Origin: a virus
Strand: one strand, 5' to 3'
DNA: 42,358 bases
IMG/VR virus record: IMGVR_UViG_3300025860_000033
Location: 1 to 42,358 of that record
Shown: positions 10,183 through 27,453 of the stretch, one piece after another
Numbering within the stretch: the first letter of the stretch is position 1
Layout: every line of letters begins with the position of its first letter
The notes under the pieces: generated by a model
The model's input: the letters and a program-made list of their open reading frames with translations, nothing else
What the model was told of the DNA's origin: nothing
Databases searched by the model: none
Made by a program: the position numbers and the translations under genes

Positions 10183-10195
10183 TTCCTCTCTTTAG

Positions 10196-10268
10196 TTGAA
10201 ACACCAGGACTCGAACCTAGGCTAGTTGCGTCAAAGGCAACTGTGCTACACATCTACACTATGTTTCA
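10196..10268 (-). tRNA. tRNA-Gln (anticodon TTG)
   Basis: The only fully canonical tRNA cloverleaf seen in the window. On the minus strand the acceptor is TGAAACA/TGTTTCA, the D stem GTGT/GCAC, and the anticodon stem GTTGC/GCAAC closes loop CTTTGAC, giving anticodon TTG (Gln). The T stem CTAGG/CCTGG carries loop TTCGAGT. CCA is not encoded. It lies in the leader of the terL operon, 13 bases before the next start, and is probably cut from the same transcript. Confidence 0.93.
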
Positions 10269-12554: not shown

Positions 12555-14314
<1,760 letters not shown>

Positions 14315-20263: not shown

Positions 20264-20276
20264 TTAGAAGCTACGT

Positions 20277-20330
20277 AGAGGTGCTCAGTTGGTGAGTGTT
20301 AATTAATGGTTCGAATCCATTTCACCTCTC
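20277..20330 (+). ncRNA. tRNA-like RNA lacking an anticodon arm
   Basis: AGAGGTG (20277-20283) pairs with CACCTCT (20323-20329) as an acceptor. CTCAGTTGGTGAG (20284-20296) is a typical D arm. AATGG-TTCGAAT-CCATT (20305-20321) is a perfect T arm. Only eight bases lie between D and T arms, so there is no anticodon arm. At about 54 nt it cannot decode. It begins 13 bases after the stop of paralogue B. Confidence 0.65.
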
Positions 20331-20368
20331 TAATGATTAAGTTAAGTTAGTAGGTAAGTAGTTGGTAA

Positions 20369-20424
20369 TGAGAGTGGTGAATGTATTTGTTCCTTGAGGG
20401 AGATAATACCCAAACCCACTCTCA
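20369..20424 (+). ncRNA. Helix-closed RNA unit
   Basis: TGAGAGTGG (20369-20377) pairs perfectly with CCACTCTCA (20416-20424), a nine-pair terminal helix around 38 bases. No ORF and no T-tract follows, so it is not a simple terminator. A smaller hairpin AGCC/GGCT follows near 20457-20474. Confidence 0.5.
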
Positions 20425-20534
20425 CAACTATTTTAACACCCCTTAACAATAATACAGCCTATTATAAATGGCTAAAAACAACAATTATAATACAAACAAT
20501 TAACTATTAACTAAACTAAAATACACAAAAAAGT

Positions 20535-20807
20535 ATGACAATTCAATACATAAGTGCTAATAACGGATTAGATGAAAGAATACTAATTGACTACGGGAAT
20601 AAGACTAAAGAGCACAGATGTGACACTAGAGGACTACAATTATCTAAAGAGTATGAAGCAGATTGGTGTGAGATGAATCAATCATATACTCTAGTATTCA
20701 AAGTGTATAACTCACATAAAGAAGTGATAAAACACATTGCTAAATCTAAAGAGTTAGAAAAGGCAGAGGATTTATTAGCCTCATTTGTAAACTATAATTT
20801 TAAATAA
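20535..20807 (+). CDS. Hypothetical protein
   Basis: A 90-residue protein (MTIQYISANNGLDERILIDY) with a beta-rich first half and a helical C-terminus (KELEKAEDLLASFVNY). Preceded by an A-rich leader and flanked on both sides by RNA units. No family recognised. Confidence 0.62.
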   Translation: MTIQYISANNGLDERILIDYGNKTKEHRCDTRGLQLSKEYEADWCEMNQSYTLVFKVYNSHKEVIKHIAKSKELEKAEDLLASFVNYNFK

Positions 20808-20832
20808 AGCATAAAAGCACGTTAGTCTTGGA

Positions 20833-20922
20833 GTAAGTAGACTGTATAAAAACTCTCCCATTGGACATATTCTACTGTATAAATAGTAATATCAGACTTA
20901 CATTTAACAGTGTGCCAGGCAC
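20833..20922 (+). ncRNA. Helix-closed RNA unit and adjacent hairpin
   Basis: GTAAGT (20833-20838) pairs with ACTTAC (20896-20901), enclosing a 69-base unit; the same closing helix is used in the minus-strand unit at 16738-16811. Immediately after is hairpin GTGC-CAG-GCAC (20912-20922). The rest of the gap up to 20990 shows no clear feature. Confidence 0.42.
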
Positions 20923-20990
20923 AAATATGGTAGAGGTGAATGCATCATACTCTTTTATCAATGCTATTTTAACTTTAAACACAACTAACT

Positions 20991-21254
20991 ATGAAAATGA
21001 TTATATTAAAAGAAGGTGATAAAATCCATCTTAAAGAAAAGAATGGAATATACACTGTTGTTAATATACATCAAAATAGTGTAGATATTTCATGTAATGC
21101 GTGGATTAGAAGAGCCAACTATCCTAAGTTTATTCCTACAAAGAATATACTATACAGTGAGATTCATTGTCTTGCTGGAGGATGGAAGAATAGGAGAAAG
21201 TTCGAAACCTATGAGGTTAAACCACTTCCTGCATCACCATGTAAATTAATTTAG
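20991..21254 (+). CDS. Hypothetical protein
   Basis: An 87-residue basic protein starting MKMIILKEGDKIHLKEKNGI, with SH3/KOW-like short strands (YTVVNIHQNSVDISCNAWIR) and a final EVKPLPASPCKLI. Could be a small nucleic-acid-binding barrel, but no diagnostic motif is present. Followed by 1.1 kb of RNA units. Confidence 0.6.
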   Translation: MKMIILKEGDKIHLKEKNGIYTVVNIHQNSVDISCNAWIRRANYPKFIPTKNILYSEIHCLAGGWKNRRKFETYEVKPLPASPCKLI

Positions 21255-21262
21255 ATTAGAGG

Positions 21263-21296
21263 GCTATCTGGATAGAAATATCAATGATCGGATAGC
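21263..21296 (+). ncRNA. Hairpin with competing pairings
   Basis: GCTATC (21263-21268) can pair with GGATAG directly beside it or with GATAGC at 21291-21296. Two mutually exclusive foldings within 34 bases is a switch-like arrangement. Short and unproven. Confidence 0.35.
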
Positions 21297-21396
21297 TTAC
21301 ACAAAAAGGTATTAGGCCTTATTATTATTTATACATTACGTTATCACTCATGCAAGTGCTATCCTATAGTAGAAATTTATTTAATCTAAAAATATT

Positions 21397-21474
21397 GTAC
21401 CTAACCATGTACATGACTTGTATATTCAAGAAGAATATTCTGCTTCAACCTGCAACACGGTAATAAAAGGGTAC
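21397..21474 (+). ncRNA. Helix-closed RNA unit
   Basis: GTACC (21397-21401) pairs with GGTAC (21470-21474). Inside are hairpins CATGTACATG (around 21406-21415) and AAGAATATTCTGCTT (around 21431-21445). First of an ordered series of units separated by TTTAAAATATAA-type spacers. Confidence 0.42.
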
Positions 21475-21498
21475 CCATTCCTTTTACTTTAAAATATA

Positions 21499-21570
21499 AT
21501 CTCCGATAAGTTAATTACAAATAAAGCATAGGTGTTCATAGCAGCCACATAACTGAAATGATGCGGAGAT
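21499..21570 (+). ncRNA. Helix-closed RNA unit, tRNA-sized
   Basis: ATCTCCG (21499-21505) pairs perfectly with CGGAGAT (21564-21570); a second helix AGTTA/TAACT lies just inside. The 72-nt length and seven-pair end helix are tRNA-like, but no D or T arm is present. Spacers TTTAAAATATA and TTTAAATA flank it. Confidence 0.52.
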
Positions 21571-21576
21571 TTAAAT

Positions 21577-21683
21577 AGAGAGTTGGCGGAATTGGTAGAC
21601 GCAAGTGAGGTATTATATTCCGCAGATGTAGCAGCTGATGGAGTAAGTATAATACTATACAGGTTCGAATCCTGTACTCTCAC
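21577..21683 (+). ncRNA. tRNA-Leu-like RNA with abnormal anticodon region
   Basis: The acceptor AGAGAGT pairs with ACTCTCA except at the first position. TGGCGGAATTGGTAGACGC (21584-21602) is the usual bacterial tRNA-Leu D region and ACAGG-TTCGAAT-CCTGT (21659-21675) a perfect T arm. Between them there is no five-pair stem with seven-base loop. Instead GTATTAT/ATAATAC (21610-21616 with 21649-21655) forms a seven-pair helix around 32 bases. It could be a tRNA with a remodelled or interrupted anticodon arm. Confidence 0.62.
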
Positions 21684-21696
21684 ATAAAATTAAATT

Positions 21697-21867
21697 AAGC
21701 TCTTTGCTTGAAGATAAATAGTAATATCGGGAATGGTCGGCTAGATATTACAAACTACATTTCAGAGTAGTTGTTGTTTATTGAATGATAATTCGTGGAA
21801 AATTGAACCACTCTGTCAAAAATATCATTATCCCACATAAACTGAATAGTGGAGCAAAGAGTTTTTT
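21697..21867 (+). ncRNA. Structured RNA family E/H, copy 1
   Basis: AAGCTCTTTGC (21697-21707) pairs with GCAAAGAGTTT (21854-21864), eleven pairs including one G-U. It ends in a T-tract, as a free RNA might. Motifs shared with copy 2 (22137-22355) are TTGAAGATAAA at the 5' side, GGGAATGG, GTTTATTG, ATAATTCGT/ATAATCGT, and TATCCCAC near the 3' side. GGGA and TCCC may pair. The unit follows the tRNA-Leu-like element, as copy 2 follows another tRNA-like element. Confidence 0.65.
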
Positions 21868-21874
21868 AAAATAT

Positions 21875-21968
21875 AAAGGTTATATGGCTCGTCATATTGT
21901 ATTAAGTTAAAAGTTAGCTTGAAGGAAATTTTCAACAATTACAATGATATGCAACCTAAGTGACCTTT
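21875..21968 (+). ncRNA. Helix-closed RNA unit
   Basis: AAAGGTTA (21875-21882) pairs with TGACCTTT (21961-21968), eight pairs with one G-U. Within it CATATTGTA can pair with TACAATGATATG, and TTGAAGGAAATTTTCAA is a hairpin. Flanked by TTTTAAAATATAAA spacers on both sides. Confidence 0.52.
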
Positions 21969-21976
21969 TAAAATAT

Positions 21977-22055
21977 AAAGTACAAGTAAACAGTTATACT
22001 CTAACAGGTGAGTTCTAGTGGGTTGAATCATTGTAACGTTAGTTGCTTGTACTTT
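21977..22055 (+). ncRNA. Helix-closed RNA unit
   Basis: AAAGTACAAG (21977-21986) pairs perfectly with CTTGTACTTT (22046-22055), ten pairs. At 79 nt it is tRNA-sized, with no cloverleaf. Spacers TTTTAAAATATA and TTTAAAATA flank it. Confidence 0.55.
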
Positions 22056-22060
22056 AAAAT

Positions 22061-22125
22061 AGAGAGTGATAATAGGTCAGGCAGTGGTACGCTATTTGTC
22101 GCAGGTTCGAATCCTGTACTCTCTA
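22061..22125 (+). ncRNA. tRNA-like RNA with one arm in place of D and anticodon arms
   Basis: Acceptor AGAGAGT/ACTCTCT (22061-22067 with 22118-22124) is perfect and T arm GCAGG-TTCGAAT-CCTGT (22101-22117) is canonical. The 33 bases between them are too short for two arms; GATAATAG pairs imperfectly with CTATTTGTC to make a single arm with loop GTCAGGCAGTGGTACG. It has no anticodon arm. The 3' half is nearly identical to that of the element at 21577. Confidence 0.62.
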
Positions 22126-22136
22126 CAAATAAAATT

Positions 22137-22357
22137 AAGCTCTTTGATTGAAGATAAACAATATAGGCGTTGGGAATGGGAGAGGGTGAAAGGCTCTCTT
22201 GATATAAAACTGTATCAGCAGTTGTGTTTATTGTAGATGTATAATCGTTAGCATATAGGCTCCATGAGAGCATTGAAATGCACTGGATGCGCTCCAGAAG
22301 AGATTGGTGAAAATCCAATACAAACATATCCCACTGAAATTTGGGCAAAGAGTTTTT
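22137..22357 (+). ncRNA. Structured RNA family E/H, copy 2
   Basis: AAGCTCTTTG (22137-22146) pairs with CAAAGAGTTT (22346-22355), followed by T's. It is about 50 nt longer than copy 1. Shared motifs are TTGAAGATAAA, GGGAATGG, GTTTATTG, ATAATCGTTA and TATCCCAC-TGAA. Extra hairpins are present here: GAGAG/CTCTC after GGGAATGG, and ATTGG-TGAAAAT-CCAAT near the 3' end. Preserved motifs with changed helices suggest a functional RNA. Confidence 0.66.
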
Positions 22358-22389
22358 AATTAAAAATATTAACCATAAACATTAAAATC

Positions 22390-22542
22390 ATGAAGAAATT
22401 TAGTTTCAAATCAGCATTTATGCTAAACTTATTAATAACAATATTTTTTATATCAGTTGCAACGTATACAGAGATGATTATATTATGGGCAATGTCAATT
22501 ATATTTGCATCTATATTACCAATGTGTGATATAGAAAAGTAA
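22390..22542 (+). CDS. Small membrane protein
   Basis: A 50-residue protein, MKKFSFKSAFMLNLLITIFF, with two hydrophobic stretches (about 8-24 and 29-44) and a short polar end (CDIEK). It has an A-rich leader and lies between RNA units. Function unknown. Confidence 0.55.
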   Translation: MKKFSFKSAFMLNLLITIFFISVATYTEMIILWAMSIIFASILPMCDIEK

Positions 22543-22606
22543 AACAACAGGAATGAAAGCTAGTGCCTGTTCTAGGGTTGAAAATCCAAAAACAAGAATA
22601 AAGATT

Positions 22607-22713
22607 AAACTCTCATCCAATTGCAGGTGATTTAGACTATACGAGGTGAAGCAGTGAACTCTGCCGTCATAATTAGTTAGCTGTCAAGGTGCAACCTTGT
22701 GAGAGTTTTTTTT
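22607..22713 (+). ncRNA. Helix-closed RNA unit ending in a T-tract
   Basis: AAACTCTCA (22607-22615) pairs with TGAGAGTTT (22700-22708), followed by five more T. A hairpin CAAGG-TGCAA-CCTTG precedes the 3' strand. The long-range end helix plus T-tract matches the style of the E/H family, though the sequence differs. Confidence 0.55.
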
Positions 22714-22768
22714 TAAATAACCTTGGTAGTTATAGGTTAAACTACAATGTTCATTGCCCTCACTTCCG

Positions 22769-22870
22769 AACTCTAGGGTGCATAATATAGAGTTTTTAAG
22801 GGTTTTATTTTTTTTACCCTTATGTTTTTTTTCATAGCAAGTTTCCCACCTCTCAACGATGTGGGTTTTT
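22769..22870 (+). terminator. Three consecutive terminator-like hairpins
   Basis: AACTCTA/TAGAGTT (22769-22775 with 22788-22794) plus five T; TAAGGGT/ACCCTTA (22797-22803 with 22816-22822) followed by eight T after TG; and CCCAC/GTGGG (22845-22849 with 22861-22865) plus seven T. Together they should block readthrough from the upstream RNA array. Confidence 0.7.
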
Positions 22871-22920
22871 TTACACAAGACATTAAAGTATTAACAATAC
22901 TCTTCATAATTATTAGATTG

Positions 22921-22950
22921 CGCGCTATATAGGTAGAGAACTATGGCGCG
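22921..22950 (+). ncRNA. Strong GC-rich hairpin
   Basis: CGCGCTATA (22921-22929) pairs with TATGGCGCG (22942-22950), nine pairs with one G-U, loop of 12. Exceptional GC content for this genome. Downstream, GATATTAACAAGCTA and GATATCGTTAAGCTA (around 22953 and 22994) are imperfect direct repeats. Confidence 0.45.
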
Positions 22951-23032
22951 AAGATATTAACAAGCTAACCTTCAGTATTGAAATATACACGGTGATATCG
23001 TTAAGCTACCTAGAGTAGTTACCAATAGCTAA

Positions 23033-23132
23033 AATTAGAGTTATGCGAGTAGGGTTCGACTCCTTACAGTCTATCATATGGCAAACGGTGAAGTGTTCCA
23101 TCTCCCGAAAAGTTGGTGGAATAACTCTAATT
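23033..23132 (+). ncRNA. RNA unit with 12-pair end helix and T arm on the 5' side
   Basis: AATTAGAGTTAT (23033-23044) and ATAACTCTAATT (23121-23132) are perfectly complementary. A T-arm-like TAGGG-TTCGACT-CCTTA (around 23051-23067) follows closely after the 5' strand, rather than before the 3' strand as in a normal tRNA, giving a permuted order. The next gene starts 33 bases later. Confidence 0.58.
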
Positions 23133-23165
23133 GAATACACGGAATAATAACACTAAAACAAGAAC

Positions 23166-26373: not shown

Positions 26374-26452
26374 AGGAAGTTAGCTCAATTGGTAGAGCTA
26401 TGCAAGCATGTGCTATAAGACAGAGACATAGGTTCGAACCCTATACTTTCTA
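26374..26452 (+). ncRNA. tRNA-like RNA with irregular anticodon arm
   Basis: Acceptor AGGAAGT/ACTTTCT (one G-U), D arm GCTC-AATTGGTA-GAGC (26383-26398) and T arm ATAGG-TTCGAAC-CCTAT (26428-26444) are canonical. The 29 bases between D and T arms form at best a bulged stem ATGCA/TGC-T-AT with loop AGCATG, lacking the U33-type seven-base loop. It may be a damaged or specialised tRNA. No anticodon can be assigned. Confidence 0.6.
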
Positions 26453-26934: not shown

Positions 26935-27453
26935 ATGAAAAAACTAGAAACAAAAACACTAACTGTTCAAGAGATATTTAATTTAGTTAGCTCATACATT
27001 GACATAGATATAACCTTAAAAACAAGACAGGATGACTATGTTTATGCAAGAGCAGTATATTTTAAATTATGTCATGAAGAGAAGCACACATTGCAGTCAG
27101 CTGCAAAGCTAGTGAATAAAGATCATGCAACAGCTGTGCATGGTAGAAAAGTATTCTTAGACTTATTTAGTCAATTAAGATTTAGAAGATTTAAAGACCT
27201 GTACCTTAATTGCAAACTAGAAATGGATGCATTAAAGGATGATAATTTAAACTTAACTGATTTCTTACTTAGATTTAAGGAAGATATAAAGATCATGAGT
27301 TTAGAGAAGTATGTAAAATTTAAAGTAACAGTATTAAAAGGAATTAACGAACACAATGAAGCAAGAGAACAAGAAGATAATTACATTCGCGCTAAAGCTA
27401 GCGGCTATGACCCTTATTTCTTTAATCCTAGCCCAACTGATAAAGTAGGTTAA
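26935..27453 (+). CDS. DnaA domain IV-like DNA-binding protein
   Basis: A 172-residue protein. Residues about 36-75 follow the helix-turn-helix of the DnaA C-terminal domain: ARAVYFKLCHEEKHTLQSAA (38-57), then KDHATAVHGRKV (62-73) corresponding to the DnaA signature RDHSTVLHA. There is no AAA+ domain, so it is a DNA binder and not an initiator ATPase. It could bind DnaA-box-like sites for origin or transcription control. The remaining helical region (80-172) is unrecognised. It lies just before a 1.1 kb non-coding locus. The family call is by motif. Confidence 0.66.
   Translation: MKKLETKTLTVQEIFNLVSSYIDIDITLKTRQDDYVYARAVYFKLCHEEKHTLQSAAKLVNKDHATAVHGRKVFLDLFSQLRFRRFKDLYLNCKLEMDALKDDNLNLTDFLLRFKEDIKIMSLEKYVKFKVTVLKGINEHNEAREQEDNYIRAKASGYDPYFFNPSPTDKVG

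Follow-up and report, generated by a model that had tools for sequence, protein, structure and literature searches.

Two undescribed RNA families with conserved scaffolds and hypervariable arms in an array of helix-closed units of a crAss-like phage

Introduction

ROOL and GOLLD are among the described phage RNAs closest to the units examined here. They are non-coding, often lie near tRNA islands and adopt elaborate folds with kissing loops; no function is known for GOLLD and no protein partner for ROOL (PMC12286853). In this report we analyze an array of small RNA units at 20.26–23.14 kb of a 42,358-base virus contig (IMG/VR record IMGVR_UViG_3300025860_000033; the whole contig is called the window), which is a fragment of a crAss-like phage, and we describe two RNA families, R1 and R2, with members in this array. 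Unlike ROOL and GOLLD, R1 and R2 measure about 70–260 nt, match no Rfam family and bear hypervariable, exchangeable arms. A further parallel is provided by RNA C and RNA D of phage T4, stable small RNAs of unknown function from a phage tRNA cluster, for which we know of no scaffold/variable-arm organization.

The original prediction, made from the letters and open reading frames of the window, had described this region as a row of discrete helix-closed RNAs with AU-rich spacers. What it missed is that units group into conserved families, in which the core hardly varies while the arms are hypervariable and exchangeable, and that several units are tRNA bodies in which a normal anticodon arm is lacking. 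That R1 and R2 are new RNA families, and that R1 exchanges its arms, we regard as almost beyond doubt.

Results

R1, an RNA with two hypervariable arms

A 38-nt match between the unit at 22137–22355 and Cellulophaga phage phi4:1 led to a 17-base core. This core gave 72 hits in viral contigs, most of them in homologous RNAs and the remainder chance matches in genes, and more members were gained by searching with the 5′ and 3′ blocks. We built a covariance model on 18 sequences, all taken from contigs other than the window. It recovered the unit with 112 bits (E = 6.9e-25) and a second, divergent copy with 61.6 bits (E = 3.5e-13), while the third-best match in 17 kb was a terminator-like hairpin (19 bits). 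The segment 21493–21578 was rejected as a third copy, since it scored only 7.8 bits, which is not significant, despite a similar ATAACTGAAAT segment. The fetched loci contain 57 distinct R1 members at E ≤ 1e-7, identical units having been collapsed prior to counting. The two copies in the window comprise the following elements.

R1, copy 1
22132–22362, plus strand: whole unit with flanks
22137–22146, plus strand: 5′ strand of P1, pairs with 22346–22355; two-sided changes in 10/10 P1 pairs across the family
22153–22159, plus strand: 5′ strand of P2 (GATAAAC), pairs with GTTTATT at 22226–22232; 99.7% of cells paired
22160–22207, plus strand: hypervariable arm 1, from the family alignment
22208–22223, plus strand: hairpin P4, with loop TCAG (22215–22218) kissing CTGA (22334–22337)
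22239–22329, plus strand: hypervariable arm 2, from the family alignment
22330–22345, plus strand: hairpin P6 with kissing loop CTGA, from the covariation analysis
22346–22355, plus strand: 3′ strand of P1, followed by a T-run, from the covariation analysis
R1, copy 2
21692–21871, plus strand: divergent paralogue; P1 formed by 21697–21708 and 21853–21864

The unit is closed by helix P1. Helix P2 (GAUAAAC/GUUUAUU) encloses arm 1 and hairpin P4 (AACUG-UAUCAG-CAGUU), arm 2 is borne on a further basal helix, and hairpin P6 (CCA..CUGAAA..UGG) lies directly 5′ of the 3′ strand of P1. Both copies in the window have P1, P2, P4, P6, kissing P4–P6 loops and two variable arms, the set of features by which we define R1. 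In the 57-member alignment, 94.6% of the cells at paired positions can pair (84.4 ± 0.4 in shuffled alignments). Two-sided compensatory changes occur in 33/42 pairs (14.3 in shuffles), and the covariation score is 0.324 (0.139 in shuffles); none of 500 shuffles reached any of these three values. When the partners were slid by 1–3 columns, pairing dropped to 36–50%. The secondary structure guided the alignment and is therefore favored by it.

The contact between the loops of P4 and P6 was left out of the model; it is paired in 98.6% of cells, and it covaries. UCAG × CUGA is replaced by CUAG × CUAG in L124 and L142 and by UUAG × CUAA in L116, and four further R1 carriers (L187, L204, L213 and L220) also have CUAG on both loops. 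Since these four were found by way of R2, they were not selected by the R1 core pattern. For copy 2 of the window, the kissing pair UUCAG × CUGAA (21761–21765 × 21842–21846) was read straight from the sequence because the alignment left the loop unaligned. RNAalifold, applied to the raw alignment, returned only P1, P4 and one small spurious hairpin, because the arms and two length classes of P6 misalign there. R1 is an undescribed, widespread phage RNA family with a conserved scaffold and two hypervariable arms.

R2, an RNA with one hypervariable arm

The unit at 22607–22708 belongs to a second family of about 36 distinct members, which have in common a block CCAATTGCAG, a hairpin CAAGGTGCAACCTTG and a closing helix P1, together with one hypervariable arm. 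The unit in the window has all four features.

R2
22603–22715, plus strand: R2 RNA; P1 formed by 22607–22615 and 22700–22708, hairpin CAAGGTGCAACCTTG at 22685–22699
22621–22625 (TTGCA) × 22690–22694 (TGCAA), plus strand: possible pseudoknot
22627–22684, plus strand: hypervariable arm, from comparison of members

Since members were gathered by the hairpin sequence, nothing can be concluded from its invariance; neither the 5′ block nor P1 belonged to the search pattern. P1 covaries (0.275, compared to 0.113 in shuffles; 0/500), in part by a one-base register change common to several members and independently in L184 and L202. Pairing of UUGCA, within the 5′ block, with UGCAA of the loop is possible in 90.9% of cells, with zero two-sided changes; as the two segments do not covary, the pseudoknot is no more than suggested. 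The family was found in 18 Flavobacterium psychrophilum phages and is intergenic in annotated ones, such as Fpv20; in several phages R1 and R2 lie near each other. R2 is, like R1, an undescribed, widespread phage RNA family. A further helix-closed unit, small at about 55 nt and marked by an internal GCAACAACC / GCGACAACC / GCAGACAACC motif, recurs beside R2 or between or beside R1 and R2 (L187, L220, L073) and possibly represents an additional family.

Exchange of R1 arms

Comparison of non-identical R1 members revealed many pairs with one arm in common and none with both. L085 and L091 have flanks that are 93–98% identical and an identical arm 2, yet their first arms are unrelated. The same is true of arm 1 in L022 and L039, despite 94% identity over 1.8 kb. 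Conversely, arm 1 is common at 100% and arm 2 is not in L011/L075, in L089/L091 and, over the 48 matched nt of arm 1, in L019/L027. Homology in the pairs L011/L075 and L016/L030 is limited to the RNA unit. Phages phi4:1 and phi14:2, which belong to different genera and both infect Cellulophaga baltica, have arm 1 in common but not arm 2. The 33-nt arm 1 of copy 2 in the window is also present in L281, whose arm 2 is another one, and neither arm of copy 2 matches that of its sister copy in L076. A scan of our collection located the arm-1 core of copy 2 in R1 of L204 and L281 only, besides unrelated sequence.

The arms also retain structure. Arm 1 of L055 and L080 differs by 9 two-sided changes with no broken pair, against 8 differences at 50 unpaired positions; arm 2 of L007 and L088 has 4 two-sided changes and none broken. 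Arms range from 23 to 124 nt, and their basal stems covary. Recurrent R1 arms thus behave as structured modules that are exchanged whole between phages. Modules shared between scaffolds were also considered and rejected, since BLAST gave only weak hits. Complementarity of the arms to the phage's own locus showed no excess over reversed arms, which does not support an antisense action on that locus.

Distribution and genomic position

Among 49 carrier records, 37 contain R1, 19 contain R2 and 31 encode a crAss portal protein. In 31/31 of the latter, the portal gene and R1 or R2 occupy opposite strands, mostly about 5–20 kb apart. Among named phages, R1 is carried by phi14:2, phi4:1 and phi17:2, and R2 by those of the Fpv/FPSV group. 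That phi4:1 and phi14:2 are unrelated phages was ruled out because both have a crAss-type portal, though they are placed in different taxa. R1 also occurs in records of 120–326 kb without a crAss portal and in a contig (L183) of a Lutibacter metagenome-assembled genome. This contig is a phage one and encodes a different terminase (phrog_38) together with NinG and an annealing protein of the Erf type. These records indicate that R1 crosses phage groups. A cellular origin was rejected: an exact match turned up just once among 84,980 species genomes, on a contig that also encodes phage terminase, Erf and NinG, and 298 other genomes of the bacterial family concerned gave none. R1 is essentially absent from cellular genomes. 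The Erf-like and NinG-type recombinases of L183 could be drivers of arm exchange.

Both families adjoin tRNAs or tmRNAs in many phages. The gp168 annotation of phi4:1 overlaps R1, and the corresponding feature of phi14:2 has since been removed from its record. Several crAss portal matches (in G045, G031, G033, G044 and others) contain in-frame stops, for example 3 TGA, 1 TAG and 2 TAA, possibly owing to stop-codon recoding, frameshifts or match ends that run past the gene.

The array in the window

The window encodes a terminase and a portal protein with about 40–45% identity to portals of crAss-like phages. Most of its long genes are on the minus strand as far as about 17.8 kb and on the plus strand from 18.4 kb. 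The array (20.26–23.14 kb) lies near the beginning of the plus-strand arm. Complementary ends had been predicted for 13 units and were found in all of them: the longest uninterrupted closing helix, at most 3 nt from the ends, measures 6–13 bp in 13/13 units, and both ends are paired in each minimum-energy fold. We counted inverted repeats (loop 30–230) in the non-coding stretches of the region, with 100 dinucleotide shuffles as controls. Repeats of at least 9 bp occur 13 times (5.8 ± 2.4 in shuffles), and 7 of these 13 match the ends of listed units; repeats of at least 12 bp occur 3 times (0.13 in shuffles). Neither count was reached in any of the 100 shuffles (0/100 each). Repeats of at least 8 bp (20 compared to 16.1) show no significant excess. 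At lengths of at least 9 and 12 bp, inverted repeats are thus commoner than in shuffled sequence.

Folding of the single units against shuffled controls gave z-scores from −4.3 (20369–20424) to 0.0 (20833–20901). The units 20833–20901, 21397–21474 and 21499–21570 are individually at chance level (p = 0.45, 0.13 and 0.14). The spacer TTTAAAATATAA is present at exactly three places in the 42 kb, all of them unit boundaries. The row of helix-closed units is real. As discrete RNAs with AU-rich spacers, the two R1 copies, R2 and the tRNA-like units are supported, while 20833, 21397 and 21499 are unproven. Absence from related phages, which would have spoken against the original prediction, was checked and is not the case: counterparts of the units at 21697, 22137 and 22607 were found in phage contigs by the dozen, and related phages have an array layout like that of the window. 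The order of units can change. A 71-nt non-coding stretch (22543–22613), 93% identical to L076:2249–2319, lies 5′ of R2 in the window but 5′ of R1 in the sister phage L076, and therefore units have been reordered. The remaining features of the array are as follows.

21488–21499, 21865–21876 and 21967–21978, plus strand: spacer TTTAAAATATAA, exact occurrences
20277–20330, plus strand: minimal tRNA-like unit with acceptor, D-arm and T-arm only; syntenic tRNA-Asn in sister phage at L076:634–714
21577–21683, plus strand: tRNA-Leu-like body, anticodon arm replaced by a long hairpin
22061–22125, plus strand: tRNA-like unit without anticodon arm, from tRNA-model alignment and fold
20369–20424, plus strand: helix-closed unit, no family assigned
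21875–21968, plus strand: helix-closed unit, 32 nt in common with phi14:2 (E = 7e-5), fold z −2.0
21977–22055, plus strand: helix-closed unit, helix of 13–14 bp, no relative found; inverted-repeat count and fold
23033–23132, plus strand: helix-closed unit, helix of 12 bp; competes with an alternative, T-armed unit at 22914–23073, of which it may be a part; inverted-repeat count and fold

Alignments to the tRNA model, and for 20277 and 22061 also the folds, reveal an acceptor stem and a T-arm with GGTTCGAATCC in the units at 21577, 22061 and 20277. ARAGORN called none of the three, and a standard Rfam gathering scan gave no hit. Their Rfam tRNA scores are 20.0 (20277), 24.3 (22061) and 29.3 bits (21577) at a gathering score of 29, which 21577 exceeds in E-value mode only and the other two do not reach. 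L097 and the sister phage L076 have tRNA bodies like that of 21577, but with different inserts. The tRNA-like units are plausibly a third chassis, on thinner evidence than R1 and R2. A helix-closed unit of different sequence occupies the position of 20369–20424 in L076 (757–817). A candidate RNA family is represented by one more helix-closed unit, found at L076:2529–2584 and in the 3′ flank of R1 in L015, in which GACACAATAATAGTTCAAAT..ATCCTAACAGAACA is conserved and the closing helices differ. No enrichment of sigma-70-type promoters or classical terminators was found, and loose searches for more RNA families returned only noise.

ARAGORN and Rfam detected no tmRNA in the window. In related phages, tmRNA genes lie in or beside the arrays at L234:4031–4500 (phi14:2; tag GSSVQKLAMVA by ARAGORN), L230:4988–5402 (Fpv20, by Rfam) and L007:980–1359 (by Rfam). 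Outside the array, the window contains a tRNA-Gln(TTG) and a second tRNA (10195–10268, minus strand, and 26374–26452, plus strand), the second of which has 46 bits with Rfam and no ARAGORN call. It also encodes a GroEL of 527 amino acids (12555–14138, minus strand; phrog_5725, E = 1e-143) and, at 26935–27453, a 172-amino-acid protein with a weak match to the DnaA C-terminal DNA-binding domain (Pfam E = 7e-7, just below the cut-off).

Discussion

The explanation that we favor, although we would put it slightly short of an even chance, is that these are early modular RNAs with exchangeable arms that act on host factors. The array would be transcribed early, probably into one precursor that is then divided at its AU-rich spacers, giving stable RNAs with ends protected by P1. 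The scaffold would provide stability and perhaps recruit one common partner. The arms would be structured modules that can replace one another; they would bind host factors, among which proteins of defence or RNA handling are the most likely, neutralize or redirect them and turn over with changing hosts. A host-directed modular role of the arms is, taken by itself, possible but somewhat doubtful. Similarly tentative is the broader idea that phages of Flavobacteriia maintain early-expressed arrays of RNA chassis (R1, R2 and tRNA bodies) as an arsenal against host functions, in which structured modules are traded by recombination and an arm swap would confer new target specificity.

Several observations weigh against this explanation. 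The lack of R1 pairs with both arms in common must be read in light of the fact that identical units were collapsed beforehand, which removed pairs with exactly equal arms by construction. On their own, the arms exceed shuffled sequence only a little in folding stability (mean z −0.56 and −0.67), and collection scans located two tested arm modules only on R1 and not on other scaffolds, with chance matches elsewhere. The term early derives from gene layout only, and the array RNAs are predicted from sequence, with putative targets and protein partners.

Could the arms instead guide the RNAs? In this case they would base-pair with RNAs or DNA of the host, not of the phage, while the scaffold recruits a nuclease or RNA chaperone. 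The combination of a conserved scaffold with variable segments does resemble guide RNAs, and exchange of R1 arms would retarget them, but the wide range of arm lengths, the covarying basal stems and the structured modules make this unlikely, as does the lack of excess complementarity, a comparison made within the phage locus. We also find it improbable that R1 and R2 are housekeeping RNAs or ribozymes for tRNA/tmRNA-rich arrays, with arms as peripheral additions whose drift and recombination would matter little. Their position next to tRNAs or tmRNAs in many phages and the conserved junction nucleotides would agree with such a function; arm modules, however, are kept by compensatory changes across unrelated flanks and replaced whole between near-identical loci. 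Since arms are replaced whole in near-identical phages, one arm is common to phages of the same host, and the array lies on the presumably early arm of the genome, a host-directed role in an arms race fits better than housekeeping.

Self-assembly into particles would turn the P4–P6 contact into an intermolecular one and the arms into variable decoration that points outward or inward. The assembly of ROOL and GOLLD rests on kissing loops (PMC12286853), and the CUAG/CUAG variant is self-complementary. On the other hand, R1 is far smaller and an intramolecular contact accounts for the covariation equally well, so that we consider this rather improbable. Ordinary decay, by which the array would consist of tRNA remnants and incidental hairpins with no function, is hardly credible overall: several units are degenerate tRNAs and three are at chance level, but decay is contradicted for R1 and R2 by strong covariation in dozens of phages, the units of the window included. 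The units at 20833, 21397 and 21499 may still fit it.

If the arms are host-directed, as our favored explanation holds, they would correspond, at the RNA level, to modular anti-defence proteins, and natural RNA-binding modules could be drawn from them. R1 and R2 are two new RNA families, open to experiment, in crAss-like and other large Bacteroidota phages including cultured isolates, and they would give a role to non-coding stretches that have been annotated with spurious proteins.

Comparison with known systems

In agreement with the original prediction, which knew of no described system with this layout, we found nothing matching in Rfam or in the open-access papers searched, and no description of R1 or R2 in the latter. 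In a search of the window and 20 loci, the majority of which are carriers, only tRNA and tmRNA models of Rfam 15 passed gathering, none on the core of R1 or R2; the tmRNA hit of L007 overlaps the R1 region by its 5′ extension at most. The ROOL and GOLLD models gave no match above gathering in the window and carriers. To our knowledge, no other natural RNA has been described that combines cassette-like exchange of arms with a strictly conserved core and a tertiary contact that covaries.

RNA anti-CRISPRs (Racrs) and CRISPR arrays are likewise comparable, as phage-borne RNAs that could counter host immunity, and the exchangeable segments recall spacers. The array in the window differs in that it has no repeat-spacer array, and no CRISPR repeat was detected at Rfam thresholds (best model 16.1 bits, threshold 35). 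Further related systems are tRNAs and tmRNAs. The window has no tmRNA, and the anticodon arm of its tRNA-like units is absent or replaced, but 21577–21683, 22061–22125 and 20277–20330 retain the acceptor stem and T-arm, and true tmRNAs are present in the related arrays of phi14:2, Fpv20 and L007.

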